Positions 6,107 through 37,308 of a stretch of DNA of 44,645 bases are shown one piece after another. Source of the DNA: a virus; IMG/VR virus record IMGVR_UViG_3300032677_000056, positions 1 through 44,645 of that record. One strand, 5' to 3'. The position numbers were made by a program, and so were the translations under genes. Position 1 is the first letter of the stretch. Every line of letters starts with the position of its first letter. The notes below the pieces were generated by a model. It had not been told where the DNA came from and did not search any database. It worked only from the letters and a program-made list of their open reading frames with translations.

Positions 6107-6505
6107 TCAATGCCCTACATCAGACGATGGTAATTCGTCAATGTATTTTTTAATTCTTTGTAAATTTTCTGTGGTAATTAAATTGTACGTGAGTCGGATA
6201 ATCCTCCACCCAAGGAGGTTTGCCTCTAAGTATTTCTCTGAGTCTTTAATGAATCCAGCACCTCTAACGTGCCTTCCTCCCCATGCTCCACCCTCAATCT
6301 CAATGAGAACCATCTTGCCCATGTGGGCATAGTCGGCTCTCCACTTCCTAGTAGGGTGAAACCTATGCTCAGTTACTAATTCCTGCCCCTTGATCGACTC
6401 CCACAGAACGTCGAACTTTCTTTCGAGACTGCTTGGAACTCTTGGTTTTGGCAATGAGGCCTCTTTCGATGAGCCCTTTCGTGACTTTTCTTTTGAATTT
6501 TGCAT
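6107..6505 (-). CDS. PD-(D/E)XK endonuclease, DUF559/VRR-like
   Basis: A 132-residue protein. From about residue 55 it reads WRADYAH, then VLIEIEGGAWGGRH, then WRIIRLT. The R-x-D, I-E-I-E-G-G and following GRHVRG pattern is that of the very short patch repair/DUF559-like restriction-fold endonucleases that phages often carry. The acidic residues D58 and E70/E72 would bind metal. The first 45 residues are basic and are encoded on top of the C-terminus of the upstream gene in another frame (137-base overlap). A role in DNA packaging, recombination or host DNA degradation is possible. Confidence 0.65.
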   Translation of the reverse strand: MQNSKEKSRKGSSKEASLPKPRVPSSLERKFDVLWESIKGQELVTEHRFHPTRKWRADYAHMGKMVLIEIEGGAWGGRHVRGAGFIKDSEKYLEANLLGWRIIRLTYNLITTENLQRIKKYIDELPSSDVGH

Positions 6506-7361
6506 CTAGTTTATGGTAGAAGGATACTACGTTAAGGGCATTTTGAAGTGCCTGTTCCTCTGATTCTTCAGTCCCCTTAGTCAGGGCTGGAGAAGGATGT
6601 TCAAATGAGGAATCGCTCACAGGCGCACCCGTCGAAGGTTCTCCCTCCGCTCTAGTTCCCTCTCCAGCAAGACCATCATTAAGCAATACGCCTCGCTTAT
6701 CGGGATGATATACCACAGCACCATCATTTACGAAAGAGGGATCAACATTATTTTTTCTCCACTGATGCGGTTTGTCTCCAGTTCCTCTCCAGTCATGCTG
6801 GATAAGCTTGGTCTTATGCATTTTAGGGACAATGTCTGATGCCGCCCATACATCCCAAGCATATTCATCCACCCCATTTGAGCAGTTAAACAACCTAGGG
6901 GCAGTTATAGACAGGTTGCAATCATACACAGCTATTCCGCTCATATGATCAATGCCTCCGGGGATTTCGCTTTTAGAAAGTTCCACAAAATCTCCCATAA
7001 ATGGACGCTGACACTGCCTGTACTCAGCCTCAATTTTATCTATCCACCCCTCACAAAGAGGAATAGCATCTGGCTCCATGAATAGAAATGGCTGTCTTGT
7101 ATTTAGAATGGCATGCCAAGCAATAGCTTGAAATGCTCTATTGCAACTTACAGGCCAGCCACGTTCAGAGTGAGTGCATGGCAAAACATGTACCTTCCTA
7201 AAGCAATTAGACAGAGGCATCTCAATGTCTTCCGTGGTAACTCCACGGATGGGTGCAATTACAATCTCGTGATTCATGTAAGGCCCAAGCTGTTTAACAC
7301 GCTTAGCCCAACGCTTCATCAACTCTACGTCACCATCGTGGTATGCAATCGCTACAATCAT
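6369..7361 (-). CDS. Glycosyltransferase-like protein (GT-A type)
   Basis: A 330-residue protein. Residues 1-110 start MIVAIAYHDGD and lead to FLFMEPDAIPL, a position and pattern like the DxD metal-binding turn of GT-A glycosyltransferases, here ExD. The domain continues to about residue 230 (GDKPHQWRKNN). After that a low-complexity Ser/Glu/Gly linker and a basic tail (KTKSSKQSRKK) follow. The basic tail overlaps the nuclease gene by 137 bases out of frame, so either the tail is dispensable or the overlap is real. It has its own promoter. It probably modifies virion or host-surface glycans together with the gene upstream. Confidence 0.6.
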   Translation of the reverse strand: MIVAIAYHDGDVELMKRWAKRVKQLGPYMNHEIVIAPIRGVTTEDIEMPLSNCFRKVHVLPCTHSERGWPVSCNRAFQAIAWHAILNTRQPFLFMEPDAIPLCEGWIDKIEAEYRQCQRPFMGDFVELSKSEIPGGIDHMSGIAVYDCNLSITAPRLFNCSNGVDEYAWDVWAASDIVPKMHKTKLIQHDWRGTGDKPHQWRKNNVDPSFVNDGAVVYHPDKRGVLLNDGLAGEGTRAEGEPSTGAPVSDSSFEHPSPALTKGTEESEEQALQNALNVVSFYHKLDAKFKRKVTKGLIERGLIAKTKSSKQSRKKVRRSVGVDQGAGISN

Positions 7362-7374
7362 TTTCGTTGCGCCC

Positions 7375-7403
7375 TTTTTACTATAAGGGGCTTGTTATGT
7401 CAA
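7375..7403 (-). promoter_or_regulatory. Sigma70-like promoter close to its start codon
   Basis: On the minus strand TTGACA (7403-7398), a 17-base spacer, TAAAAA (7380-7375). The predicted start of transcription is near 7368, about seven bases before the ATG at 7361. This leaves no room for a Shine-Dalgarno sequence. Confidence 0.5.
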
Positions 7404-8455
7404 AGGGAAATAAAAGGCTGTGCCTTCACTCTAAGATGCCCTTTGCACTCTCCAACTTGTTCGTGGAATGACCTATAATGAACAATCTTGCCATCTGATT
7501 GCTTCTTGATGTGATCGCATGGGCAATGGGGGATACAGGCAATTTTAAGCCCTGCTGGATGCCACCTATGCCAGCACAGGAATAGATCCTGCGTTCCCTT
7601 CCCTTCATATCCATTGAAGTCTGCAAGCTGAAGAGCTTTCTTGGAAAGCAGAGTACAACCTAATCCGCACCAGTCGGATGGAACAATAGCCCCCTCGCCA
7701 ATGCCGGGATAAGCAAAGTCCATCCACCCCCTACGCCTCCATCCATGCTTGGCATTAACCTCCCAGATATTACCATCTGGAGGGCATGACTTCTTGATCC
7801 TTTCTCTAATCCTAGCCATTCTATTGCCTTCCTTATCAAGAATGGCCTTTCTCTTCTCTTGGTCGTGTGTGAAGTCCTTGTGGATCATGTGTGATGCCGC
7901 ATCAATCCTTTCCTTGCATTTGTCATGCACTAGCTTGATCCTAGGTTTTAGCTTCCTCTCATGGGGCAGGAAGTCCTCAGCTATTGCGTTCTGAGGGGTT
8001 CCAAATCCTCCCAAGAACAATCCATTCTGATAAGTGGCGGCGGCTATGTCGTAATAGCTCTGACCATCTGCATCGGGCATTTGAAGAGTCCATTCCAGAA
8101 CTCTAAGGGAATTAGCAGTCGGGATGGTGTCGCTTTCTACTGACCAACAAAGGTCTGATTTAATCCTTCTTGCAAACTCAAATGCGGCTCCTTGAAGTTG
8201 AGCAATTCTGATTTGCGCTGACTCCTTGTAATCTTTTGCATCTTCGGTTATCGGAAGGCGAATAGCAGTTACTTTCCACCCTTCTGGAAGATGCCCCTTT
8301 GCAAAGTTTTCAGCTTCCTTACTCTCTTCGCTTTTGTCGGTTGCAAAAATAAAGTGGCAATCATTATGGTGTGAACCAGCCGTGGCAATGGCTCGGATCA
8401 ACTGAGGCCAGCAATACAAATACGACTTGGTAGCAGCGGTAACTATTGAAATCAT
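7400..8455 (-). CDS. Glycosyltransferase family 2-like protein
   Basis: A 351-residue protein starting at the ATG at 8455, which overlaps the stop of the previous gene (ATGA). N-terminal MISIVTAAT, then LCWSVESDTIPT (about residues 100-112) is the likely nucleotide-sugar and metal-binding strand, and GLGCTLLSKKAL followed by GTQDLFLCWHRW near residues 265-300 matches the acceptor-side region of GT2 enzymes. A Cys/His-rich stretch, IPHCPCDHIKK, follows. The gene lies among tail genes, so its target may be a virion protein or the host surface. Confidence 0.65.
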   Translation of the reverse strand: MISIVTAATKSYLYCWPQLIRAIATAGSHHNDCHFIFATDKSEESKEAENFAKGHLPEGWKVTAIRLPITEDAKDYKESAQIRIAQLQGAAFEFARRIKSDLCWSVESDTIPTANSLRVLEWTLQMPDADGQSYYDIAAATYQNGLFLGGFGTPQNAIAEDFLPHERKLKPRIKLVHDKCKERIDAASHMIHKDFTHDQEKRKAILDKEGNRMARIRERIKKSCPPDGNIWEVNAKHGWRRRGWMDFAYPGIGEGAIVPSDWCGLGCTLLSKKALQLADFNGYEGKGTQDLFLCWHRWHPAGLKIACIPHCPCDHIKKQSDGKIVHYRSFHEQVGECKGHLRVKAQPFISL

Positions 8456-9906
8456 ATCCAACCAGCCCCACCAGTGTTGGCAACTAATCCATCCTGACCC
8501 ACCTCAATAAAATCAGCACCAGTTAATGTGATGGGGGAGCCATTAGAAAAGTATGAACAAGTGCTATGGCTTGAAGATGCAGAACCAGTTGTATAGCTTG
8601 TAAAGCCAAATACTCCAGAGACAGTTACAGTAGCACTATCTGAACCATTAAATATGGCTGGCAAACTATTTTGTTGAACTGACCATGTATCAAATGTTTG
8701 GCTTCCATAACTATTCACAAAAGAGGTACTTACTGGCCTTCCAAAGGTTTGACCAGCACTAATGTCATAATTAACAATTTGAGTTTGTGAGACACCATCT
8801 ATTTGGTAAATTCCCCAAGATGCCGCCCAAGCATTATTAAGAATATATCCAAATGGAGATTGAGCTACTGTGGCTGGAATAAGTGCAGGGCATCTAGGAG
8901 AAACCCTATAAACCCCAACGAGTGCGCCTCCAATCACATTATCATCTACCCATAGTGGATCATCATGCCCAAAAGTAAAGCCATTGTATGTGCTATTAGA
9001 AGATTGTCCCAATTTTACAAAGCCACCTAAATTATCATTTGTTGTCCAAGTGATATATTCTCCAGCAGTCACATTAGCGGCATTAGTGTTTGTGAAATTA
9101 TTATATATACTAGAATCACCATCAACCTGACTTGAATCACTTGTGGAGCTTCCTATATATGGGGAATATATTGAAAAATAAGTATAAGAATACAAAGTGT
9201 CTTCGTGAGTCCCAGTTGAATAACTACTTGAACTAGAAGAAATCTCAGAAATAAAAGATGCAGAATTCCACCTTACAGACATTTCCACCGGAACAACGAG
9301 TGAAAGATCTGTATTCCTTCCTTCCATGCTTGCGGAATCATATCCTATGTCCGTTAGGCGATGATTGCCCATTTTATAATTATAATTTAATGCAGTATGA
9401 TCTATTCCATAATATGTGGTATATGTAAAATAAGTGTCATATGAATAATCAGTGATGGTAGTAATTTGTGAAGAGGTTGATAAAGAATCAATCCAAAAAC
9501 TTTCCGTAGCAAATGTGTTATTATAATACGTTGAAGTTCCATAAGAAACACTACTTGTTGATACAAGATCAGAAATTGGCCCAGTATAGCCAGAATCTAT
9601 ATTCAAAAATGTTCCAATAATTGTGAGAGGCGTAAATGGACGCTGACCAGTACCAGCATATGTATCTGAAACTGTGGTAGAATATTGCGTGTTGTCATAA
9701 GTGGAAGATGACGTGACGGCAGAACTTAAAAAAGTTAACCCACTATTATCTGTGACCACATTGTTAGAATTATCTAAATGCGTTGATTGTTCATTTGCTG
9801 TGTAATACTCTATGCTATTTGTAAAAGTATAGGAAAGGGGGTCAAGGGTAATAATTGTCGTGCCAGTAGCATCATTCCCATCGAAACTATAAGCCACTGA
9901 ACTCAT
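8452..9906 (-). CDS. Ser/Thr/Tyr-rich tail or fibre protein
   Basis: A 484-residue protein dominated by Ser, Thr, Tyr, Asn and Gly, with long beta-rich stretches such as SSTYDNTQYSTTVSDTY. There are no signal peptide, membrane segment or catalytic motif. Composition and position downstream of two other structural genes suggest a distal fibre or spike component. The C-terminal 60 residues (GSASSSHSTCSYFSNG) resemble a small receptor-binding tip, which is speculative. Confidence 0.6.
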   Translation of the reverse strand: MSSVAYSFDGNDATGTTIITLDPLSYTFTNSIEYYTANEQSTHLDNSNNVVTDNSGLTFLSSAVTSSSTYDNTQYSTTVSDTYAGTGQRPFTPLTIIGTFLNIDSGYTGPISDLVSTSSVSYGTSTYYNNTFATESFWIDSLSTSSQITTITDYSYDTYFTYTTYYGIDHTALNYNYKMGNHRLTDIGYDSASMEGRNTDLSLVVPVEMSVRWNSASFISEISSSSSSYSTGTHEDTLYSYTYFSIYSPYIGSSTSDSSQVDGDSSIYNNFTNTNAANVTAGEYITWTTNDNLGGFVKLGQSSNSTYNGFTFGHDDPLWVDDNVIGGALVGVYRVSPRCPALIPATVAQSPFGYILNNAWAASWGIYQIDGVSQTQIVNYDISAGQTFGRPVSTSFVNSYGSQTFDTWSVQQNSLPAIFNGSDSATVTVSGVFGFTSYTTGSASSSHSTCSYFSNGSPITLTGADFIEVGQDGLVANTGGAGWI

Positions 9907-19606: not shown

Positions 19607-20299
19607 TTATTTATCTCTTAAAATATCCTCCATTTTCTCCACTATCTCAGGTTTTAATCCTCCCCAACTCCATTCTTGGTTGATGAATGTTGGAACTTCA
19701 GAAGGCAACTTCCAGCTATAACAATCATTCCTTTCTCTGTAAGCCCATGCACCATAAGAGTTAAACTCACTGAATCTAGCCTTTGGCCTTTTCCTTAACC
19801 ATGAATCAAGTGGCTCGCCATGCAACCCAAACATGAATTGCCTAAACTCCCTCAAGCACTTCCTGTCAAAAACAAATGGATGACGGCGCATAAACTCATA
19901 ATCAGGCCTCCATCCAATAGCTTCCTGCACTACAGGATACCAAGGAGTGTGTTCTTCTGGAACAGCCTCGTATAACCAGATTGGTTTTCCATTATCAAAC
20001 AAGTCATCTGGAGTTATTTCCCTAGTAAGCAGGCAATCAGAGTCCAAGCACAAGATATAATTTGAGGGACAATATAAGTCGCAATGGAGCTTGTCATTCT
20101 GTTGCCCGATATAATCATCGCCCCATCTATTAACCAGATGCACCTCCTCGCTTCCCTTTGGAAGCATGTCCAGATCTCCTGACGGAATACATAAATGAAT
20201 CTTGCCAAATCCTTTTGCATACTTCTTCAGAGAACGTAAGCAATAATTGAGCCACTGAAAATCTCCGTGATAGGAGCGGATAAAAATATCTACATTCAT
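19607..20299 (-). CDS. Glycosyltransferase-like protein, DUF6492 type
   Basis: A 230-residue protein starting MNVDIFIRSYHGDFQWLNYC, with ILCLDSDCLL around residues 85-95: a hydrophobic strand ending in a DSD motif that would bind the metal and nucleotide sugar. Later NQEWSWGG near the C-terminus may form part of the active site. The pattern matches the GT-A-like DUF6492 group. I chose the ATG at 20299, which overlaps the stop of the methyltransferase gene (ATGA), so the two are translated together and probably act on the same glycan. Confidence 0.6.
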   Translation of the reverse strand: MNVDIFIRSYHGDFQWLNYCLRSLKKYAKGFGKIHLCIPSGDLDMLPKGSEEVHLVNRWGDDYIGQQNDKLHCDLYCPSNYILCLDSDCLLTREITPDDLFDNGKPIWLYEAVPEEHTPWYPVVQEAIGWRPDYEFMRRHPFVFDRKCLREFRQFMFGLHGEPLDSWLRKRPKARFSEFNSYGAWAYRERNDCYSWKLPSEVPTFINQEWSWGGLKPEIVEKMEDILRDK

Positions 20300-20943
20300 T
20301 TTGGAACACAAAGGATGTCATACTGCATCCCATCTGGATCTGGATAGCAAGTAACATCATATCCATGATCGTACATAAATATCATAATGTCCTTTGACTC
20401 AACACCCTGCTTCTTTAAGGCATAATAATTGATCTCTATCCACATCTTGGGGCGGAATCTCTCAATCAGCCCCTTCGCTCCCTGCAAAGCCTTTAGCTCA
20501 TATCCCTCCACATCCAGCTTGATAAAATCCAATCTATCAAGATTCAATTCATCCAAGCACATAAGCTTTATAGCCTCGCCACTCTCTCCAATAGAACTAG
20601 CGCCCACGTTCTCACAAGTCTCCAAGAAAGCCTCTCCTCCGTGGCTACAGAGTCCGTAGTTGAATGCTTTGGCATCGGGGCAGTTGTGAACAAGGCACTG
20701 AAATGCTTTAGGGTTTGGCTCAAATGCAATCACTGTGCCAGATTCCCCAACCTTATTCAGATAAGCAATAGTGTGGTCGCCTATAAAAGCCCCGGCATCC
20801 ACCACAACATCTCCCTCGTTAATGTGCTCAAGAATGATAGGAATGGCATACTCGTCGTGATCCAATCTCCCTGACGATTCCACCCACGAAGAGATATGAG
20901 TGTCTCCCTCCAATACTGCAATCCCATTGGGGAGAATCTTCAT
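20296..20943 (-). CDS. FkbM-family SAM-dependent methyltransferase
   Basis: A 215-residue protein. VVVDAGAFIGDHT at residues about 47-58 is the S-adenosylmethionine-binding motif I with the glycine loop. Motif II-like VIAFEPNPKAF and the FkbM signature DFIKLDVEGYELKALQGA follow, then WIEINYY. FkbM enzymes O-methylate sugars or small molecules. The overlap with a glycosyltransferase gene suggests methylation of a virion- or host-associated glycan. Length is typical of the family. Confidence 0.85.
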   Translation of the reverse strand: MKILPNGIAVLEGDTHISSWVESSGRLDHDEYAIPIILEHINEGDVVVDAGAFIGDHTIAYLNKVGESGTVIAFEPNPKAFQCLVHNCPDAKAFNYGLCSHGGEAFLETCENVGASSIGESGEAIKLMCLDELNLDRLDFIKLDVEGYELKALQGAKGLIERFRPKMWIEINYYALKKQGVESKDIMIFMYDHGYDVTCYPDPDGMQYDILCVPK

Positions 20944-21148: not shown

Positions 21149-21440
21149 TGATTCTGGAAAACAGAATCGGTGTAACGACTGAAGATCGCTCCGGGCGGGT
21201 CACTCGTGAAGGTCAAGAGAACAGGAATTGCCGCCTGTTCTTAATTTGAGAATGAGCAGTCCCATGTTCCAAGGTTAGGCGAGAAGGACTCCAAATCCAT
21301 CTGCGCTAGGTTCGATTCCTAGGGGCTGTGCCATTCCTCTCACTCCAATCCACCCAGCAGATAAGGCTCCATAGGTCATACTTGAAGCCGAGGGAGTGCA
21401 GAAGCTCTAGTCTCGCCTAGGGCTTCTTATGTCTTTTTCT
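21149..21440 (+). ncRNA. Candidate small structured RNA with tRNA-like 3' half
   Basis: Between the promoter and terminator on the plus strand there is no gene but several hairpins: GATTCTG/CAGAATC near 21150, AGAACAGG/CCTGTTCT at 21218-21241, and the tRNA-like element at 21256-21333. In addition TAGGCGAGA in that element is complementary to TCTCGCCTA at 21411-21419, so the RNA could switch between a tRNA-like fold and a long-range pairing that would break the terminator hairpin. This is inference from pairing potential only. Confidence 0.4.
21256..21333 (+). tRNA. Degenerate tRNA-like element, Trp(CCA)-type loop
   Basis: The T-arm is perfect (CTAGG-TTCGATT-CCTAG at 21306-21322), and the 7-bp acceptor pairs (GCAGTCC with GGGCTGT, two G-U) and is followed by G and an encoded CCA. 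The anticodon loop CTCCAAA is that of tRNA-Trp. However, the anticodon stem has an A-A mismatch and the D-arm has at most three weak pairs, with the overall length two bases too long. It may be a decaying phage tRNA, or the kept 3' part of a tRNA such as is found at attachment sites, although no integrase is visible. Confidence 0.35.
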
Positions 21441-21821: not shown

Positions 21822-21937
21822 CAGAATCTCTATTCCCTTCAGTTAAGGGAGTCTTATCTCATTGTTCGTTTCTTGTTTCCAGAGTCTCTATTCACCCCAG
21901 ATAAAGTTGTCTTATCTCACTATTCGTTTCCTTAGTT
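21822..21937 (+). repeat. Imperfect tandem repeat, two units of about 58 bp
   Basis: Two units start with CAGA(A/G)TCTCTATTC at 21822 and 21880 and continue with TCTTATCTCA(T/C) and ATTCGTTTC (TTCGTTTC in the first). The first holds a CCCTT/AAGGG hairpin and the second an AGATAA/TTATCT hairpin at the equivalent place. They open a 429-base stretch without a gene (21822-22250), and no promoter is clear within them. Confidence 0.6.
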
Positions 21938-22792: not shown

Positions 22793-22889
22793 TCCTTTGG
22801 CTCTAGCTCCTTCGTCGCCTTGAGCATGATGTAAGTAGCTGGCGTTGCCAGAGTTGTGGCACGCAGTTCTGTCTGCGTTACAGCTCTCT

Positions 22890-23120
22890 CTATCTCCTTG
22901 CCTTCCTGCGTGTCTGTATTCCAGCTATAGCTTCGCCACTTCGCAATCTAACTCTCTTTCTGTTTTTCTGGATCTCTTGTCTTTCTTCACTAGATTGGGC
23001 AGGGTTCCGTCTTGTGCTTGTGCAGGCTAAGCAAGTGGGTTCCGTTGGCTCTTCTCCCCATGCATGGCTATTCTTTTGCGTCTCCCTGTGATCTGTCGTT
23101 GCTTGCGGGATTATCGTCAC
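22890..23120 (-). CDS. Doubtful small basic protein, GTG start
   Basis: A 76-codon frame beginning at GTG and ending in an Arg/Lys-rich tail (RRKARR). It has a single CxxC-like pair (CLAC) and no other motif. Purine-rich coding on the minus strand agrees with the local strand bias, but no start signal is visible and it lies in a region dominated by hairpins. Treat it as a possible gene only. Confidence 0.25.
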   Translation of the reverse strand: MTIIPQATTDHRETQKNSHAWGEEPTEPTCLACTSTRRNPAQSSEERQEIQKNRKRVRLRSGEAIAGIQTRRKARR

Positions 23121-23158
23121 TGTTACCTTAGCCCATGCCTACTGTCGTCGGAGTTCTA

Positions 23159-23200
23159 TTTTTTCCTCACGGCTTACGCCTATCTGTGATGAGGAAAAAA
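23159..23200. terminator. Bidirectional terminator-like hairpin
   Basis: TTTTTTCCTCA (23159-23169) pairs perfectly with TGAGGAAAAAA (23190-23200) around a 20-base loop that itself holds a GGC/GCC mini-hairpin. The A/T-rich base of the stem gives a U-run on either strand. It sits at the point where the purine-rich strand switches from minus (left) to plus (right), so it may insulate the two sides or be part of the candidate RNA to its right. Confidence 0.55.
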
Positions 23201-23520
23201 GTAGCCCACCTAGCCAGATCGGCGATGGGAGGTAACGACGTTCCGAATCCCGAAGAAAGCAACGTCCAGCTCAACTGGGTGAGACAGCAAATCACCGTCG
23301 CCATGGGGGGAGGAAGGCCGAACCCAAACCTTGCGTATAGCCTTGGCACAAAGCACGACGGGGGACTAATAAGTCCCTGCCCATCTGGAGTGAATCCAGA
23401 CGAGATCCTCCCTCGAAAAACGAGAAAATCGAGCCATTGCGGTAGAGTGGCTTCCAGCTATCGACGCTGATAATCGAAGGACACGCTAGGGAGCGGCCAG
23501 AGATTAGATTGAGAGCTTCC
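23201..23520 (+). ncRNA. Candidate structured noncoding RNA upstream of the operon
   Basis: This part of the 882-base gene gap (22752-23633) is purine-rich on the plus strand and folds locally many times: GGGA/TCCC enclosing GG(T)AAC/GTTCC near 23227-23251, CCAG/CTGG near 23267, GGGACT/AGTCCC with loop AATA near 23361-23376, TCTGGA/TCCAGA near 23384-23400, CTCG/CGAG near 23412, GGTAG/CTATC enclosing TGG/CCA near 23441-23462, and GGGAGC/GCTTCC near 23490-23519. A 111-codon frame crosses it but has no family resemblance. Phages carry large RNAs such as GOLLD and ROOL near tRNA genes, but I cannot match this to a known class. Confidence 0.4.
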
Positions 23521-23633
23521 TCTTGACAGATTACGTTAGACGGCGTGAGTGATAGAGGAAATCGGCTCTAGTTAGATTTATTTTTTTTACGTTAGTAAAC
23601 TCGTGCGTGAGCACACAACCAACATTAAATATT

Positions 23634-23744
23634 ATGTCCGATTACATAAACACCGAAGACGCTCTCGCTCATCAAGAGTGGGTAGCAGATAACTACGTAG
23701 TAGATCTGGAATCAGGTCGCATCGTCAAACAGGAGGAAGCATGA
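23634..23744 (+). CDS. Small acidic protein, first gene of the amidoligase operon
   Basis: A 36-residue protein, MSDYINTEDALAHQEWVADN then a short C-terminus ending KQEEA. It is acidic and soluble. The leader ACATTAAATATT is A/T-rich. Its last codons form AGGAGG, a ribosome binding site for the next gene, and the stop overlaps the next ATG (ATGA). No family is recognised. The overlap supports real translation. Confidence 0.55.
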   Translation: MSDYINTEDALAHQEWVADNYVVDLESGRIVKQEEA

Positions 23745-23836
23745 ACTACAATTTCAAGCTTCTCTTTCTGAACATCATCACTATCATCTTTGTTGAAGCG
23801 TGGATGATAATGATCGCCTACATGCTTCTCAGTTAG
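23741..23836 (+). CDS. 31-residue single-span membrane peptide
   Basis: MNYNFKLLFLNIITIIFVEA followed by WMIMIAYMLLS: almost entirely hydrophobic, one membrane segment. AGGAGG five bases before the ATG is the strongest Shine-Dalgarno match in the window. It lies between the acidic 36-residue protein and the amidoligase. A membrane anchor for the operon products is conceivable. Confidence 0.6.
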   Translation: MNYNFKLLFLNIITIIFVEAWMIMIAYMLLS

Positions 23837-23888
23837 TACACACACATAAAAACCGAGTTGGTCGCTCGTTAACTGTACCAATCGCAGT

Positions 23889-25226
23889 ATGGATAAAAAG
23901 ATAGACAGCAAAGCAATCGCAGGAATGTCTCAACATCGTTCTCCTGCATTCGTATCAGCATACCTTGACATGATGCTAACGCATCGCATGCCGGGATTAA
24001 GAATCATAGGTATGATGACTTTTTTAGAAGAAAACATCTTACGAAAAGCATGGGATCGCTTGGAAGAGAATCAAAGCAAGCCGTATATCAGTCAGGAGAT
24101 GCGCAAGAAGGCAATGCTTGAGTTCTTCAATGTTGCCAAAAGCGTGAGTAAGATTCGAAAGTATCGTAAGTTCATCAAGCTTATGAGTCACTTCGATGAC
24201 TACATCATGAGCTTAGATCGCAACCAGATTGCAACAATGATAGCTGGAAAGGGCAAGAAGGACATCCAGATATACATTGGAAGTTATGCCAAGCGTTTCT
24301 TCAGCTACAATCCTCCATATCATGATAAAGGTGTGAAGCCTCTACATGATCAGTTGCCTCTGTATGCATGCTCTGGTGAGCTTGAAGCGGAGGAAATGGA
24401 CTATCACAAGATCGTCAAACTATCTCGTGGTGCATCTAACACGGGCGGTTACTGGAAGCAGAGCAACAAGCTTAACTTCTCCAGAGATGGCGGAGGTCAG
24501 CGTGAGACTCAGTTCCACATTGATCCTGTCCGTGCCAAGATCGTCTGCGGATTAGTCACTCGGCTTGGTGGACATCGCCGTAATGGTGGTCACATCCACA
24601 TCAACTGCAAGTATGACTACGCCACTGGTAAGCGTGTGTTTGACGCATTGCGTTATCACTTGTCCTGGACTCGCTGGCTTGTCAGCGGTGTCAGGCGTAA
24701 TCATACGTGGGCTCCTGTGAGCGGTACGGAACAGACGTTTGATCGTGCCATCGGTCACAAACAGGCCGCAGTCACAGCCAACACATGGCATCGCACTGGC
24801 ACTGTAGAGATGCGTGTATGGGGTACGACTAACAAACCAGAAGAGTGGCTTGGTAGAGCAAAGCTCATGCAGGCTATTGCCAAGTGGTCAGAGGCATTCA
24901 ACTGCACTCCGAACGATACGCCTTATCCTATCACGATGGACACGGCGCATCTTGCATGGCCTCAGTTCTTCTCTTGGGCATCTCGCAATGCTCCAGAGGG
25001 TCTGTGCTACGCTCTTAAGACTATGCGTAAGAAGTTGCGTACGGCTTCCACTCCGTCAGTAGATAAGCAAGCTTGCGAGGCATTCCTCACTGCATGGGAG
25101 CAGTCAGGTCGCACTTGCCGATGCTATCGCACTCGTCAGCCAGTCAGTCGCCCAGCCACCATTGATATCAGCGGAAATTCGCTAGGTATCGCTCAACCCG
25201 TAACAAATTGGATAACAGGAAACTAA
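23889..25226 (+). CDS. Amidoligase-like protein (COOH-NH2 ligase fold)
   Basis: A 445-residue protein. Residues 1-155 are a helical N-terminal domain of unknown origin. From about residue 160 the amidoligase_2 pattern appears in order: GELEAE (163-168, the conserved GxExE strand), SRDGGG (198-203), GGHIHIN (233-239), an Arg-rich helix (LSWTRWLVSGVRR), and TVEMRVWGTT (305-314). These match the acidic and basic residues that bind ATP and metal in glutamine-synthetase-like COOH-NH2 ligases. The enzyme would join a carboxylate to an amine. The next gene is a class II amidotransferase that can supply ammonia. Substrate unknown. The family call is firm; the function in the phage is inference. Confidence 0.75.
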   Translation: MDKKIDSKAIAGMSQHRSPAFVSAYLDMMLTHRMPGLRIIGMMTFLEENILRKAWDRLEENQSKPYISQEMRKKAMLEFFNVAKSVSKIRKYRKFIKLMSHFDDYIMSLDRNQIATMIAGKGKKDIQIYIGSYAKRFFSYNPPYHDKGVKPLHDQLPLYACSGELEAEEMDYHKIVKLSRGASNTGGYWKQSNKLNFSRDGGGQRETQFHIDPVRAKIVCGLVTRLGGHRRNGGHIHINCKYDYATGKRVFDALRYHLSWTRWLVSGVRRNHTWAPVSGTEQTFDRAIGHKQAAVTANTWHRTGTVEMRVWGTTNKPEEWLGRAKLMQAIAKWSEAFNCTPNDTPYPITMDTAHLAWPQFFSWASRNAPEGLCYALKTMRKKLRTASTPSVDKQACEAFLTAWEQSGRTCRCYRTRQPVSRPATIDISGNSLGIAQPVTNWITGN

Positions 25227-25230
25227 TCAT

Positions 25231-26226
25231 ATGTGTAAATTAGCAGGATGGACATCGTCCAAAGATCAGCCACTTAGCAAACAAGCCGCAGACTTAGCAC
25301 TGCAGGCCGCTCATGAAGTCATCATTCGCTCAGAAAAGGATGGCTTCGGCTATGCACAATCAGGATCAACTGGGCTTCGTGCCAAGTTCGTCCAGCCGTC
25401 AGAGTTCGAGAACATGGATTCGCTTACTAATCTGTATCGCAGAGCCGGGAACGCCGCTTCCGCATTCTCAACCAGTTATCGCACTTCTCAGGAAGGATCG
25501 TATGTAAATAACAAGCATATAATAGTTCATGGTCGTACTGCCACATGCGGTGTCAATCTTCAGAATGTGCATCCGTTTCGCCGTAAAGGTTGGACGCTTG
25601 CGCATAACGGAGTTGTTAACTGGGCAGGTCAGAAGTCAAAGGATCACGACTCGGTTAGTTGTGACTCTGAGCATCTTCTCATCTGTATGGCAGATCACAC
25701 TCCTATGCTTCAGCGTAAGGAGGCACTTAACCACATAACTGGTTATGCCGCATTCTTGGCTCTGAATCCACAAGGTAAGATGGTAGTTGCCGTAGATGAT
25801 AGAGCTTCGCTCTATGCAGGCATTACTAGCAAAGGGCGTTGGATCTTTGGTACGAACAAGGCCATCGTGGAGGCAATAGCAGATGCATGGAACGCTAAAG
25901 GCGTACAGGCTTATCCTATTGATAAATGGACATGGATGGAGTTCAACGCTAACGAGTTGTCTGATCCTGAGCTTTCAGAATGGAAGCACAAGGATGCTAC
26001 AAGTCATCAGCTTGGATTCGCATCTCGCAGTATCGGCAAGACCTATCAAACCTATTCAAACAACTACGGCTATCGTAGTCCGTATGAAAGGCCTACAACG
26101 ATCCTATCGGCAGAGCAAGCCGATCATCAGCGTGGAGTAATCGAAGAAGACTTCACGCTATATCCTGACGAGCAGGAGATCATAGACGCTCAACTATCAG
26201 GCATCCCTGACTACATGGGAGAATGA
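25231..26226 (+). CDS. Class II glutamine amidotransferase
   Basis: A 331-residue protein. Cys2 directly after the initiator Met (MCKLAGW) is the expected N-terminal nucleophile once Met is removed. HGRTATCG (100-107), NVHPF (112-116) and AHNG (124-127) are the signature segments of the Ntn-hydrolase GATase-II domain. A DSE (145-147) follows. The glutaminase domain covers about residues 1-230, and the C-terminal 100 residues are Tyr/Ser-rich and acidic with no synthase domain, so it must work with a partner. Four bases separate it from the amidoligase, the obvious partner. Confidence 0.85.
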   Translation: MCKLAGWTSSKDQPLSKQAADLALQAAHEVIIRSEKDGFGYAQSGSTGLRAKFVQPSEFENMDSLTNLYRRAGNAASAFSTSYRTSQEGSYVNNKHIIVHGRTATCGVNLQNVHPFRRKGWTLAHNGVVNWAGQKSKDHDSVSCDSEHLLICMADHTPMLQRKEALNHITGYAAFLALNPQGKMVVAVDDRASLYAGITSKGRWIFGTNKAIVEAIADAWNAKGVQAYPIDKWTWMEFNANELSDPELSEWKHKDATSHQLGFASRSIGKTYQTYSNNYGYRSPYERPTTILSAEQADHQRGVIEEDFTLYPDEQEIIDAQLSGIPDYMGE

Positions 26227-26309
26227 AGAATCGCCAAACACTCGTCGAAGCAATCATTGCTTTGATATGTTCGGTTCTCATTGCTTACTGGTCTGATAAG
26301 TATAAGTAA
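26223..26309 (+). CDS. 28-residue membrane peptide ending the operon
   Basis: MKNRQTLVEAIIALICSVLI then AYWSDKYK: a single membrane segment with a basic end on each side. Its ATG overlaps the amidotransferase stop (ATGA), and a strong terminator begins nine bases after its stop. It is too short for a family assignment. With the 31-residue peptide upstream it suggests that the enzymes act at the membrane. Confidence 0.6.
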   Translation: MKNRQTLVEAIIALICSVLIAYWSDKYK

Positions 26310-26317
26310 AATGCACA

Positions 26318-26352
26318 GGGGAGTCCGGCTAACGCCGGGCTCCCCTTTTTTA
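26318..26352 (+). terminator. Strong terminator of the amidoligase operon
   Basis: GGGGAGTCCGGC and GCCGGGCTCCCC form a 12-bp stem with one G-U pair and the loop TAAC, followed by seven T (one interrupted by A). Its inner part, GGCTAACGCC, also forms the core of the hairpin at 22261-22278. Confidence 0.9.
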
Positions 26353-26392
26353 CTGCATCGGCTCGGCTTCGCCTCGCCTCGCTTTTCCGCCG

Positions 26393-26436
26393 AACTTGTT
26401 AGGGCGACCAGAGCCTAACTTGTTAGGGCGACCAGA
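26393..26436. repeat. 20-bp direct repeat, two copies, period 24
   Basis: Two identical 20-base units beginning AACTTGTTAGGGCGACC lie at 26393-26412 and 26417-26436 with the four bases GCCT between them. They sit between the operon terminator and the stop codon of the first minus-strand gene at 26438. They may be a protein-binding site, or a replication slippage product. Confidence 0.75.
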
Positions 26437-30263: not shown

Positions 30264-31952
30264 TCACGAGTAGTCGGATTCCAAATCGTTATCAAGAATA
30301 AAATTCTCCCATTCTGGATCGTCCTCTCCACCATACCCAACGGCATTGCCCAATCCATTGTTGTTGACGAAGAGATAAACTAGAAGGCTTAAGGCATCGG
30401 CTCTGTCTGGAGATCCTCCCTTCGTGCGTTTCTTCAAATCCTTCTTCGATTCCAGCAAGGTCTTCTCATTACGAAGCGTGTAGATACGAGCACATAGCTC
30501 CCTAGCAGTGAGATCATCCAGACCACGCAATCTCCCTGCCATGATAATTGTCCTGATTTGCCCCCATAGTTGGCTCACACGATTGGCGTAGATTTCCCTC
30601 GCAGAGCGAGAGTCCTCCATGCTTATCGGGGTGTCCGATGGAGATCCACCAAAGCTAACCCTCCTAAATCCGTTCTTCCATCTTTGCTGGATGATGTCTG
30701 CTATTGCGGCTCCTGCACCAGTTGCGTCAATAGCAAAGTTCTCGGGGTCGATATTGCGCTTGACAAGTTCCTGTATGGTCTGATCAGCCACTTGATATGC
30801 CAGCGGATAGTTATCACTCTCCATGAGTTGAATGCGGATGATGTCTCCTAGGGATAGCATCATCTCGCCATCCACGGCCTTGCCCATCGTTGCAAACCTT
30901 ATGATGCAATCATCGCCATCAGTAGTGAAGGCGGGGTCTAAGGCGGCAATCTGAACCAAGTCCCCACCTGTCCAAATTACTTTATCCCTAGCCCCGCCCT
31001 CATTGATGGTTGCTTGATCCAAGATGGTATTTTTAGCACCAGACTTAGACCACATGCCTCGGCAGTAACTATTCCACTCAAGGCTACCTTCGCCGAATAC
31101 TGAGCGGATGGTGTTGACGTTGTCAATTCCAAATAGATAGGGGTAGATGGTTTTGCCAGCCTTGATGTTTGGGCTCTTGAGTCCATCGAATCTCACGCAT
31201 ATACCAGACTTTGTCTCCCAATGCTCATCGTCATCTTGGATGCTGTTCCACCCCATGCGTGGCTCACAGAATAATCCATGAGAGTCGAATTGGCTGGAAG
31301 CGTTGGCAATGGCAATGAAATGGTAGAAGTCCGTACCCACTGCCAAGTTTGCACGAGCCGAGAAGATAGCAGGGTTGGTTTGTGCGGCCTCGTCCACCAT
31401 GATTATCATTCTGGGTAAGTGCACCCCCTGCAATGTTCCAACGGCCTTCTCAATAGATCCACTTTCCACGGCAAGAGCCATAATAGCCGATCTATCGTCT
31501 CCTTTCTGGAACTGGATCTTGGTCTGGGAGTCCACCACGTTAAGACCGAATAAAGGGCTTACAGGGCGAATGAAGCGCATAGCCTCCGCCCACACACGTC
31601 CACGCAATGACTTAACTGTGGCTGAAGTCAGAGCCACTCTGGTTGCCATGGGCCGAGCCAGATACTCCACAATAGAGAGGAGGGTAAAGGTGAATGTCTT
31701 GCCTGCACTGGCACATCCAGTCACCCCTATCTCGTTGTAGTTAGTCCATGCCCATAAAGCCATCTCATTCCAATCATTCCAGCTTCTTATCACGTCAGGC
31801 CAGATTAACTGGATAACGTGCTTGATATGCCTATCCCTAGACATACCTGAGAACTTGGAAGGATCTTTCTCAGCAACCATAAGGAGCTCAACCTCAAGTT
31901 GAGACACCTTAGGGTATTTGCTTAGATCCAGACCATACGTCTGGACGGACAT
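30264..31952 (-). CDS. terL: Terminase large subunit
   Basis: A 562-residue protein. The ATPase domain has Walker A GCASAGKT (79-86) and Walker B IIMVDEA (183-189), followed by a motif III region (IANAS). The RNaseH-like nuclease domain has IAALDP (D339), FAIDATG (D409) and PDRADAL (D516/D519), the three acidic sites of terminase nucleases. It packages DNA into the prohead through the portal and cuts the concatemer. It begins three bases after the scaffold-like gene. Confidence 0.95.
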   Translation of the reverse strand: MSVQTYGLDLSKYPKVSQLEVELLMVAEKDPSKFSGMSRDRHIKHVIQLIWPDVIRSWNDWNEMALWAWTNYNEIGVTGCASAGKTFTFTLLSIVEYLARPMATRVALTSATVKSLRGRVWAEAMRFIRPVSPLFGLNVVDSQTKIQFQKGDDRSAIMALAVESGSIEKAVGTLQGVHLPRMIIMVDEAAQTNPAIFSARANLAVGTDFYHFIAIANASSQFDSHGLFCEPRMGWNSIQDDDEHWETKSGICVRFDGLKSPNIKAGKTIYPYLFGIDNVNTIRSVFGEGSLEWNSYCRGMWSKSGAKNTILDQATINEGGARDKVIWTGGDLVQIAALDPAFTTDGDDCIIRFATMGKAVDGEMMLSLGDIIRIQLMESDNYPLAYQVADQTIQELVKRNIDPENFAIDATGAGAAIADIIQQRWKNGFRRVSFGGSPSDTPISMEDSRSAREIYANRVSQLWGQIRTIIMAGRLRGLDDLTARELCARIYTLRNEKTLLESKKDLKKRTKGGSPDRADALSLLVYLFVNNNGLGNAVGYGGEDDPEWENFILDNDLESDYS

Positions 31953-33449: not shown

Positions 33450-34730
33450 TTAGTCTAGTAGGTCTGCTTGCTTGGGAAGTTTTTCATCGCTGAAGATGAT
33501 GTCATTTTCCTCGGCGTTTTCAATCTCTTTTAATGCGGCAGGGAGAGCGTCGGTATTAACCTTGATGTCGAGGCCTTTAACGCCCTTGGCATGTTCTTGG
33601 CAGTTCTTGATTGCCTCCTCCATAGTATCTCCCATGCCAATGCAATCTCCCACCTCGCACATCCTCACTCCAGTTGTGGGGACGATATAGGTCATATCTT
33701 CCACCTTGCAAGCATTACGCCACTTAATCCACCTCTCCACTTCTGGATCACATGATACTGGGAGCCAGCGTTCCTCGGCAAAAGAAGACTTGATGATAGC
33801 CAATGCTCCGTACTTAGCCCTCCATACTGGATCAACCAATACGCCATTAGCACCAGCTTCCACGATTTCACCCACGTTATCCACCATTTCCCAGACTAGG
33901 GCAGACGGAGGAGCCGGGCAACGTGTGGTAAGGTCGATAAGGTATGGAGTACCTTCTTCCGTGACTCGGATCTCAGTGGAGAAGAACTGCTTGTATCCCG
34001 CTTCTTTAAGGAATGGAGTAAGCAGTTCATTAACCACCTTCACTGGTTCAGATAGCTTTGCGTAGTCTCTAACGGCTCCCACGTATCCGCAGTCCTTCAC
34101 TTCCACGCCAGTCAAGCATGTGGATGGGAACTTACCATCAATGCAATATCCATCGTATCCAGCTTCAACCACAGACTCCACCTTATGCTCAATAACGAAC
34201 GGAAACACATTACAGAGGCCTCCTAGAGCGTCCCATAGCTCATTTACACGTTGCTCTGAGTGAGCCCATGAAGGAGAATGGAATGTTTCTGCAACGCCTC
34301 TGAATCCAGAGATCTTCACATAAACGTCATCATTTTGCTCCAGATACTCACGTAGGGCAGGCATGCCAGTGACAAGAGCACATTTACCCACAGGAAGTCC
34401 AAGCTCCCTCATGGTTTCTTTAGCCCTCCATCTCTGGACTTCAAGCTTCTCGCCTAGGCCAGCCGCCCATACAGGAATGCCCATAGAGCGGATATGCTCG
34501 GCTAAATACATGAACCCCACATCGGGAATCACTACGAAGTCCACGTCTAGGTTTTCCTCCCAGTTACCCACCCTTTCCACGCCCTTAAGTCCTTCTCCGA
34601 GGAAGGCAGGGCCGGGGATTGGGAATGAGCGATCAGAGTAAGGCACAAAGTACCTCACGTCATGCTCTTCAGCCAACCTAACGGCAAATGCCGTAAAGAG
34701 GCCGTGATCAATTACTAGACATTTAGACAT
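33450..34730 (-). CDS. ATP-grasp ligase in the head module
   Basis: A 426-residue protein. Residues 1-95 are a Rossmann-like N-domain (KCLVIDHGLFTAFAV). The ATP-grasp part runs about 100-335: K139 in VYVKISGFRG, FVIEHKVE (180-185), then FSTEIRVTEEG (E253) and YLIDLTTR (D266, R270), the metal- and phosphate-binding residues of ligases of the carbamoyl-phosphate synthetase/PurK type. Such enzymes join a carboxylate to an amine or thiol using ATP. There is no obvious substrate. Its location between portal and scaffold is odd, and it may act with the amidoligase or on a virion protein. Confidence 0.75.
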   Translation of the reverse strand: MSKCLVIDHGLFTAFAVRLAEEHDVRYFVPYSDRSFPIPGPAFLGEGLKGVERVGNWEENLDVDFVVIPDVGFMYLAEHIRSMGIPVWAAGLGEKLEVQRWRAKETMRELGLPVGKCALVTGMPALREYLEQNDDVYVKISGFRGVAETFHSPSWAHSEQRVNELWDALGGLCNVFPFVIEHKVESVVEAGYDGYCIDGKFPSTCLTGVEVKDCGYVGAVRDYAKLSEPVKVVNELLTPFLKEAGYKQFFSTEIRVTEEGTPYLIDLTTRCPAPPSALVWEMVDNVGEIVEAGANGVLVDPVWRAKYGALAIIKSSFAEERWLPVSCDPEVERWIKWRNACKVEDMTYIVPTTGVRMCEVGDCIGMGDTMEEAIKNCQEHAKGVKGLDIKVNTDALPAALKEIENAEENDIIFSDEKLPKQADLLD

Positions 34731-35079: not shown

Positions 35080-37308
35080 TTAGGGTGCTAGGCTTGAATA
35101 CTTACTAGCCAGCTTGATCTTGTCAACTGTTAATCTTTGAGCCGTACGCTGATCCTGCAACATCATCTGATGCTGAGCCTTGGCCTGCTTAATCTGAGCA
35201 TCGTTCTGGAACTTAGCCCTATCAAGCATGATCTTGTTCTGAGCAACCAGCATCTTGGCATCTTGGGGTTGTTGAGCCTGCTGTTGTTGCGCCTGCTCCA
35301 TATCCCTTTGCTGGAGGTCTTGAGCCATGCGATTAACCTGATCGGCAATCTTCATAAGCTCGCTGACTTGCTGGTTGATGCTATCAAACTGCTCCTTGCG
35401 TGTAGGATCTTCCTCAAGATATTTGAGGTGAGTAAGCACATGAGGAATAAGCCCTTGGAAGATTCCTGCGGCCTGACGAGGATCTTGCCTCTGACCCTGC
35501 AAGGCTTCCACCACGTCATTAGCATAGTGCATGTGAACTTGCAGATGGACGAAATGGTTCTGATCTGGGTCGATAAGCACCTGACCACCTGATGCAAAGG
35601 CATTGTTTTCGAGGGATGAGATCGAAAGATCCTGACCCTCTGGCTTGGTTTCTTCTGGGATACCAAACGTCTCCACCCCGGTCTGCCCGGCAATAGCGGC
35701 AATATTGGCGTTAATAACACGCTTACGATTGCTTTCTGGTAGCTGTGGCAAGTATTCTTGGATCATCTTCATTGCCTGCATACGAGCGGCAGAGCTTCCC
35801 TGACCAATGGATCGGGTGGCTTTAACGCTCTCAATGTCTAGCAATGCCGCCGCTGGAACACCACGCCTCATGCAAGCGTCTTGGAATGCGAGAGCCTGTG
35901 GCCCTCCCTGATCCTCTTCAACGATGTTTGGGTTAGATGCACGACGATAAACCTCATGGTAGTGAACGTCCAGAGCTTGGAGATAAATCTCAGCACGAGT
36001 ATTTGTGAGCCTGCTCTTTTCTCCGATCTCAGCCTCAACCTCCTTGTTGCCCTTCTTTCTTCCACCAGCAACAGTGGGTAGGAATGATCCGATCTCATCA
36101 CTTTCCTGAGACTGGAACATCTGAGCCGTTTGCATGGCGGCATTTAGGTTAGCACTGACGTTAACCTGAGTTAGCTGAAGCCCCGGAGGGAGAATGCGAT
36201 AAGGCCCAATCTGGACTGTCTTAAGCTTCTCAGCATCAGCCGCAGTCTGGGGCTGGAACATGATGGCGGAGCCCACAATAACACCTTCGCAAAGGCTATT
36301 GTTGATGCGATTCATGGCCTCGGCATACTTGTAAACTTTTTGCCCTAGGCCTCTTACGCCATGATAATATCCGTTTCCTACGCCATTCAAAAAGACTGTG
36401 AAGGCGTTGCTGAAGTTCTTGTAGCAGGACTGCTTTGCACAGAGCCACTCAGTAGAGTTGAGTCGGTCAAATACGTAGTGGCTGATCTTGCCGTCATACT
36501 CCCTGACATACATATGGGCGATCTTAATCACCTTGCTCTTGGCATAAGAGTAGTATAGGGCATTGTTCTTAAGCTCTTTCTGATACCACTCCCAAGGACG
36601 ACGCTGATCAGCTTCGTCGATACGAGCCTGCATAATGGCATCCCTGCACTCCTCTACGTCCCATCCACCACGCTCTGCGGCTTCCTCGTCATCAATATAA
36701 CGATAGAGCTCCTCAGTGTAGATGTCGTCCAGCACGTAGCAAAACTCCCATTCATTCCAATCCACACTAGCACCCTTGGGAACTACCAACTGCCAAGGCT
36801 CAACGGCCTTAGCCCTAAAGTCCATTCCATCCCCCCAGAACATACATGCCTGTCCGTGGATAACTAATTGCTTCTGACAGATCTGGTGCTGAGCCAAGAA
36901 GTTGGGATTGGTCTTATCCAGTAGCTTATGGAACTCATCAGAGATGATTCTGCTCCACTCCTCCCTCTTGCCCATATCTGGCCCATGCTGGGTCTTAATG
37001 GTGGCATAGTTCCCAACGGAGGTGAGGATGTCAAAGTAAGGGATAACTGCATTCTCCACCTTTGCCTCTGCATGACCCCAATTCACGTTAATGCGGTCTG
37101 ACTGACCCATCTCACGAAGCTGTTGCTCGTTAAACGGAGCATTGCCATCAATAATTCCTTGGATCTGAGCCCTGCGATATGAAGCTATCTGATCGTCATC
37201 AACCAGAGTATAGAGCATCGAACGAGCAGAACTAGCATCATCTATCCTCGTTTTAGGAGGAGCCTCATCTGGTTCTGGATCGTTTAGTCCGTATGGCTGT
37301 GTACTCAT
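35080..37308 (-). CDS. Portal protein
   Basis: A 742-residue protein of the size used by short-tailed phages. The N-terminal 350 residues are mixed alpha/beta (RAQIQGIIDGNAPFNEQQLR, then EWSRIISDEFHKLLDKTNPN). A helical stem follows, with RNSLCEG-like and EIGEKSRLTNTRAE segments near 310-440. The last 130 residues form a Gln-rich coiled coil (QQRDMEQAQQQQAQQPQ), the barrel or crown helix region of long portals. It makes the dodecameric ring through which DNA enters. Its ATG overlaps the previous stop by one base. Confidence 0.85.
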   Translation of the reverse strand: MSTQPYGLNDPEPDEAPPKTRIDDASSARSMLYTLVDDDQIASYRRAQIQGIIDGNAPFNEQQLREMGQSDRINVNWGHAEAKVENAVIPYFDILTSVGNYATIKTQHGPDMGKREEWSRIISDEFHKLLDKTNPNFLAQHQICQKQLVIHGQACMFWGDGMDFRAKAVEPWQLVVPKGASVDWNEWEFCYVLDDIYTEELYRYIDDEEAAERGGWDVEECRDAIMQARIDEADQRRPWEWYQKELKNNALYYSYAKSKVIKIAHMYVREYDGKISHYVFDRLNSTEWLCAKQSCYKNFSNAFTVFLNGVGNGYYHGVRGLGQKVYKYAEAMNRINNSLCEGVIVGSAIMFQPQTAADAEKLKTVQIGPYRILPPGLQLTQVNVSANLNAAMQTAQMFQSQESDEIGSFLPTVAGGRKKGNKEVEAEIGEKSRLTNTRAEIYLQALDVHYHEVYRRASNPNIVEEDQGGPQALAFQDACMRRGVPAAALLDIESVKATRSIGQGSSAARMQAMKMIQEYLPQLPESNRKRVINANIAAIAGQTGVETFGIPEETKPEGQDLSISSLENNAFASGGQVLIDPDQNHFVHLQVHMHYANDVVEALQGQRQDPRQAAGIFQGLIPHVLTHLKYLEEDPTRKEQFDSINQQVSELMKIADQVNRMAQDLQQRDMEQAQQQQAQQPQDAKMLVAQNKIMLDRAKFQNDAQIKQAKAQHQMMLQDQRTAQRLTVDKIKLASKYSSLAP

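Follow-up and report, generated by a model that had tools for sequence, protein, structure and literature searches.

The DNA analyzed here, called the window, is the whole of IMG/VR virus record IMGVR_UViG_3300032677_000056 (positions 1 to 44,645), a 44.6-kb phage record. Nearly all of its genes lie on the minus strand, and an operon of five open reading frames (ORFs) runs on the plus strand from 23634 to 26309, followed by a terminator. The first ORF (23634 to 23744) encodes an acidic, soluble mini-protein of 36 aa, MSDYINTEDALAHQEWVADNYVVDLESGRIVKQEEA, from an ATG start; a 45-aa form starting with GTG at 23607 is also present in the program-made ORF list. The second (23741 to 23836), which is ATGA coupled to the first and has a good Shine-Dalgarno sequence (AGGAGG), encodes a single-pass membrane mini-protein of 31 aa. 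After a leader (23837 to 23888) come the genes for a 445-aa carboxylate-amine ligase with the predicted glutamine synthetase (GS) fold (23889 to 25226) and for a 331-aa class II (N-terminal Cys) glutamine amidotransferase (25231 to 26226). The last ORF (26223 to 26309), ATGA coupled to the glutaminase gene, encodes another single-pass membrane mini-protein, of 28 aa. The operon ends in an intrinsic terminator-like hairpin with a T run (26317 to 26346, plus strand; 13 pairs, 10 of them G-C), which was the top site in a terminator scan of the region and whose stem is identical in the related contigs L001, L002, and L005. Thus, the five ORFs, the ATGA overlaps at 23741 and 26223, and the strong terminator described by the first-pass annotation were all found again when the sequence was re-read. 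The inverted orientation, too, is general: the cassette lies on the strand opposite to the large terminase gene in the window and in 15 of 15 related records that have both.

In L001, the membrane ORF and the ligase gene are separated by an extra ORF of 53 aa, whose end is also visible directly before the ligase gene of L002; to judge from the sequences, it was apparently lost from the window by deletion. The element AACCGAGTTGGTCGCTCG before the ligase gene was considered as a repeated promoter-like element and rejected, since it is present in a single copy in the window and is exact only in L001. Just past the operon terminator, a tandem 24-nt repeat, GCCGAACTTGTTAGGGCGACCAGA (26389 to 26436; 96% identical), is kept in L001, L002, and L005.

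The non-coding stretch before the operon (22853 to 23619) forms a single giant hairpin of 235 pairs, rod-like and imperfect, with minimum free energies (MFE) of −337 and −342 kcal/mol for its two strands (z = −7.4 and −11.7, each from 20 shuffles). ORFs inside it look spurious. The hairpin is nearly identical in L001; it was detected in no other viral contig in one exact 29-mer scan and matched no Rfam family. A conserved folded RNA before the operon was also considered and dropped: the folding signal is strong in the window, but 400-nt windows from relatives gave no consistent counterpart and no Rfam family was found. Further upstream, two tandem 51-nt copies (21822 to 21930; 80% identical, spacing of 58) lie in the intergenic region after a 76-aa plus-strand ORF, and a single tRNA-Trp gene (21256 to 21333) shares the plus strand with the cassette.

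The assignment of the 331-aa protein as a class II glutamine amidotransferase was upheld by both profile and fold. It scored 34.1 bits against the curated GATase_6 cut-off of 27 in Pfam (3.3e-8) and likewise passed the GATase_4 cut-off. Cys2, the RTAT motif, and the AHNG motif noted before are all present, and Cys2, HGRTAT, HNG, and CDS are invariant in an alignment of its relatives. The structure model (pLDDT of 71.9) is good in the domain and poor over the last ~65 residues; the modeled fold aligns with PurF (Z = 20.9), with the GlmS glutaminase (Z = 20.0), and also with asparagine synthetase and EgtC. The protein thus consists of a glutaminase domain and a low-confidence tail. Since it has no acceptor domain, a partner would be needed. 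A dN/dS of 0.08 between the window and L002 indicates strong purifying selection.

The ligase was harder to place. Searched as a single sequence, it was recognized by none of the Pfam, PHROG, and NCBIfam families and, at an E value of 1e-5, hit no phage record. In particular, it does not reach the curated cut-off (22 bits) of PF12224, Amidoligase_2, which was matched by only 2 of 14 ligases of the clade (best E value, 0.0022). The first-pass annotation had named such a lack of matches as grounds for giving up the amidoligase identity; at the Pfam cut-off the lack is real, but it is overcome by profile and structure evidence. Ligases encoded beside more distant glutaminases of the same type do pass PF12224 and are genuine Amidoligase_2 proteins. 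When a profile of these outgroup ligases was compared with the window family by using hhalign, the core from DG onward aligned with an E value of 1.8e-7 and a probability of 93.8, whereas an unrelated control profile gave an E value of 0.29 and a probability of 0.2. The DG, GxHxH, RR, GTxExR, and W motifs are in register between the two profiles; GxExE lies outside the aligned block and corresponds by eye. The window ligase has the GxExE, DGxxxxE, GxHxH, RR, and ExR motifs in the order found in Amidoligase_2. The GxExE, GGHIHIN, and RVWGT segments reported before are indeed there, and G163/E164/E166, G233 to H237, and E307/R309 are invariant among the relatives.

In an alignment of 14 family members, the helical N terminus is variable and the core is conserved, starting at CSGELEA and reaching about residue 385, in line with a catalytic core of residues ~154 to 391 and a helical N terminus of residues 1 to 150 (model pLDDT, 79.9). 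In a structure comparison with the core, all 50 PDB entries listed were GS, GCS2/YbdK, GmaS, PafA, or Dop, with Z-scores of 9 to 12.6 over 160 to 225 residues. Foldseek gave a modest best E value (7e-3; probability, 0.99), for the Pup ligase PafA with Pup peptide, whereas the Z-scores place GCS2/YbdK ahead of PafA as fold neighbors. The fold of residues ~154 to 391 is thus common to the ligase and the solved structures of GCS2/YbdK, glutamine synthetase, and PafA/Dop, but identity is only 6 to 16%, and since the substrates of these enzymes differ, the fold does not give the substrate. Because of the profile match to true Amidoligase_2 proteins and the core fold, we regard the ligase as a putative divergent, Amidoligase_2-like GS-fold ligase that is not a PF12224 member by cut-off; the earlier amidoligase assignment holds for fold and family relationship, but Pfam alone misses it. 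Its core is under strong purifying selection (dN/dS of 0.11, window versus L002). The N-terminal 150 residues evolve several-fold faster (dN of 0.25 versus 0.025 in the core, same pair). The 155-residue N-terminal domain that had been taken as new is helical, as described, but its novelty is better understood as that of a poorly conserved, fast-evolving part of the ligase. A ligase-profile search of solved-structure sequences returned only coiled-coil noise against this helical part.

Ligase and glutaminase genes lie side by side in all related contigs that span the two, usually with the ligase gene first; the order is reversed in L042 and L043. Their divergences correlate (r = 0.926; 0 of 2,000 permutations). 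Co-occurrence in other phages is therefore complete where testable, which excludes that the two enzymes never occur together, the other outcome that the first-pass annotation would have held against the pair. Since the terminases of cassette carriers fall to about 30% identity and the ligases likewise, the pair is an old, stable part of the lineage rather than a recent acquisition, and the earlier label of an accessory module fits badly with its retention across the whole phage lineage. A pattern search of 84,980 cellular genomes found no ligase relative, bacterial genomes gave only two weak fragments related to the glutaminase, and models of anti-phage defence matched neither enzyme. On lysogeny independence, as proposed by the first-pass annotation, the scanned window proteins included no recognized integrase. 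The minus strand encodes a terminase-like protein (Walker A/B by eye) at 30264 to 31952 and a portal-like protein at 35080 to 37308; searches of 50,697 phage records (at an E value of 1e-5) and of the Pfam and PHROG families matched neither, and the phage lineage (IMG/VR relatives of 44 to 74 kb) appears to be uncharacterized. Possible glycosyltransferase-like genes (by eye; one DUF6492) and a gene for an FkbM-type methyltransferase are present among the structural genes (6369 to 8461 and 19607 to 20943, minus strand) and may serve surface-glycan modification.

The mini-proteins recur beside the pair. A hydrophobic mini-ORF comes after the glutaminase gene in 11 of the 17 distinct contigs, where dinucleotide shuffles would give 0.04, and before the ligase gene in 7 of 14, where 0.17 would be expected; some of the contigs are related to one another, which makes these counts partly dependent. 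A strict Shine-Dalgarno filter was dropped from this survey because it was too harsh and missed the window's own 28-aa ORF. The latter belongs to a family alignable in seven contigs, with a basic N terminus (usually with L-x-E), a hydrophobic run, an acidic residue, and a basic end, and differs from its L002 copy by five synonymous and no non-synonymous changes. Of the upstream membrane ORF, the L048 and L049 copies are alignable with each other (71%), and the window copy is only 14 to 19% identical to them. Homologues of the 36-aa acidic protein are found upstream of the ligase gene in L048 (65%) and in L049 and L080 (54%), so that three lineages including that of the window have the protein, with a dN/dS of about 0.2 to 0.3; two matches in phage records had an E value of 2 and were dismissed as chance. 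The membrane mini-proteins are absent from several contigs of the larger-genome clade (L054 to L059) and are thus not obligatory. Since mini-ORFs are mostly not found beside eight outgroup amidoligase-GATase pairs (three candidates, one of them in a low-specificity region), they look like a trait of this lineage. Their recurrence strengthens the link to the membrane that had been proposed from the window alone.

Gene sets of this kind are known from other phages. An amidoligase, GATase, ATP-grasp, and gamma-glutamyl cyclotransferase cassette of LUZ24-, phiRIO-1-, and phiEco32-type phages goes back to Iyer et al. 2009, as cited in PMC3890496 and PMC5498523. In LUZ24-like phages, genes for a COOH-NH2 ligase, an amidoligase, a GATase, an ATP-grasp protein, and an AIG2-like protein are described as encoded together (PMC3890496); in Pseudoalteromonas phages, the set is termed a "peptidoglycan modification cassette" and proposed to block superinfection (PMC5498523), and the cassette genes of phage HP1 are described as transcribed immediately on infection (PMC7082346). 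Peptidoglycan modification against superinfection is the usual proposal for such pairs, and in the passages on phage amidoligase-GATase sets that we retrieved, neither enzymology nor experimental proof of a change in host peptidoglycan was found. The window resembles these cassettes in that a class II glutaminase and a GS-fold ligase are encoded together, and LUZ24-like phages also in that the cassette runs opposite to the late genes. However, the window clade has two enzymes only, without the PF14395 ligase and the cyclotransferase (PF06094): neither gene was detected in the window or in any of 20 relatives, several of which are fragments, whereas the same search detected PF14395 in control phage W01 and PF06094 in nine control genomes. 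Other differences are the ligase score, which falls short of the Pfam cut-off, the additional membrane mini-proteins, and an ATP-grasp-like gene that is located next to the portal gene and restricted to the closer clade. This gene (33450 to 34730, minus strand) encodes a 426-aa protein that is ATP-grasp-like by eye, has no family match, and is kept at 63 to 73% identity in that clade. Its position is odd for a ligase, and its product is possibly a capsid- or cassette-related enzyme; being confined to the closer clade and located beside the portal gene, it was not counted as a cassette member. Minimal Amidoligase_2 and GATase pairs, as in Arthrobacter phage Ottawa, ctUh1700, ctgrD200, and OM43 phages, share with the window the adjacent order of ligase, then glutaminase, but their ligases clearly score with PF12224 and mini-ORFs are mostly absent. 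On sequence grounds, the window pair is best described as a divergent, reduced version of the known two-enzyme cassette. What is fresh is the group of tiny, conserved proteins that accompanies it; the retrieved passages on phage cassettes make no mention of these.

What could such a cassette do? The general chemistry is, with good confidence from motifs and models, amidation by glutamine hydrolysis and ATP-dependent carboxylate activation. The N-terminal Cys of the glutaminase, after removal of Met, would free ammonia from glutamine; the GS-fold ligase would use ATP to activate a carboxylate and join it to the ammonia passed on to it, giving an amide. The tiny membrane proteins encoded at both ends of the operon may anchor the pair to the inner membrane or regulate it there. 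Because of these proteins and of precedent, the likeliest acceptor would be a carboxylate within the peptide moiety of peptidoglycan or of its lipid-linked precursors, as for MurT-GatD in Gram-positive bacteria, where ATP-dependent carboxylate activation is likewise described as coupled to a glutaminase (PMC3267633). MurT is Mur-ligase-like, unlike the window ligase, so the two systems are analogous in their working but not homologous. GatD, moreover, is not known to belong to class II (N-terminal Cys). An amidated wall might make the cell more or less vulnerable to other phages or to lysins of the peptidase type, whereas the phage's own lysin, identified by family search as a GH108 muramidase, would stay active since it cuts glycan rather than peptide. 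For this reading in full, a membrane-associated amidation cassette that acts on an envelope carboxylate and confers a superinfection benefit, we estimate a probability of about 0.45; against it stand the contigs without mini-proteins, the lack of PF14395 and PF06094 in the window clade, and the ligase score below the Pfam cut-off.

Alternatively, the pair could act in small-molecule metabolism, making an amidated metabolite or shifting host nitrogen or glutamate pools. Such pairs are called auxiliary metabolic in OM43 phages (PMC10580990), where exclusion is mentioned for related phages, and a role in nitrogen metabolism is proposed for the planctomycete phage Phage-ZRK32, which is described as promoting host growth on nitrate or ammonium (PMC10945688). 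GCS2/YbdK and GS, among the nearest folds of the ligase, act on small molecules, but the membrane mini-proteins are hard to explain in this way and the operon has no transport or biosynthetic genes, so that we consider this role rather unlikely. The PafA match and the fact that three lineages conserve a tiny acidic protein in this operon would instead suit something like a reduced tagging or peptide-modification system that amidates or ligates either a host protein or a co-encoded peptide, be it the 36-aa protein or a membrane mini-protein; so would the acidic residue conserved near the C terminus of the 28-aa family. Yet the Z-scores favor GCS2/YbdK over PafA, and neither mini-protein is present in every contig that has the pair, so neither can be the sole substrate; the 36-aa protein, found in three lineages only, was rejected as an obligatory tag. 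Modification of a peptide or protein is thus quite improbable.

Phages with modified bases use amino-transfer chemistry, and the stability of the pair in the lineage is as expected for genes acting on phage products. Amidation of a virion protein or of phage DNA bases is nevertheless very improbable: the cassette lies on the opposite strand, its terminator separates it from the late genes, and the scanned window proteins included none recognized as the product of a base-hypermodification gene. Exclusion proteins and small toxins are commonly short single-pass proteins, and the upstream membrane copies vary strongly between lineages; the mini-proteins could therefore be independent peptides of this kind that merely share the transcript of the enzymes. 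Against this speak the translational coupling with the glutaminase gene and the fact that mini-proteins recur at one and the same position; we consider it unlikely.

If, in contrast, the membrane mini-proteins, and perhaps the 36-aa protein, are dedicated, overlooked parts of phage amidoligase-glutaminase systems, they might place the complex at lipid-linked precursors or serve as its peptide substrates, an idea that we put forward tentatively and that, if true, would make the cassette a membrane-bound phage amidation machine. Many phages carry amidoligase-glutaminase pairs, and the proposal for their role is 15 years old. The tiny conserved membrane partners point to the membrane as the site of action, and this lineage offers a small unit of four or five genes for expression, muropeptide analysis, and superinfection assays.
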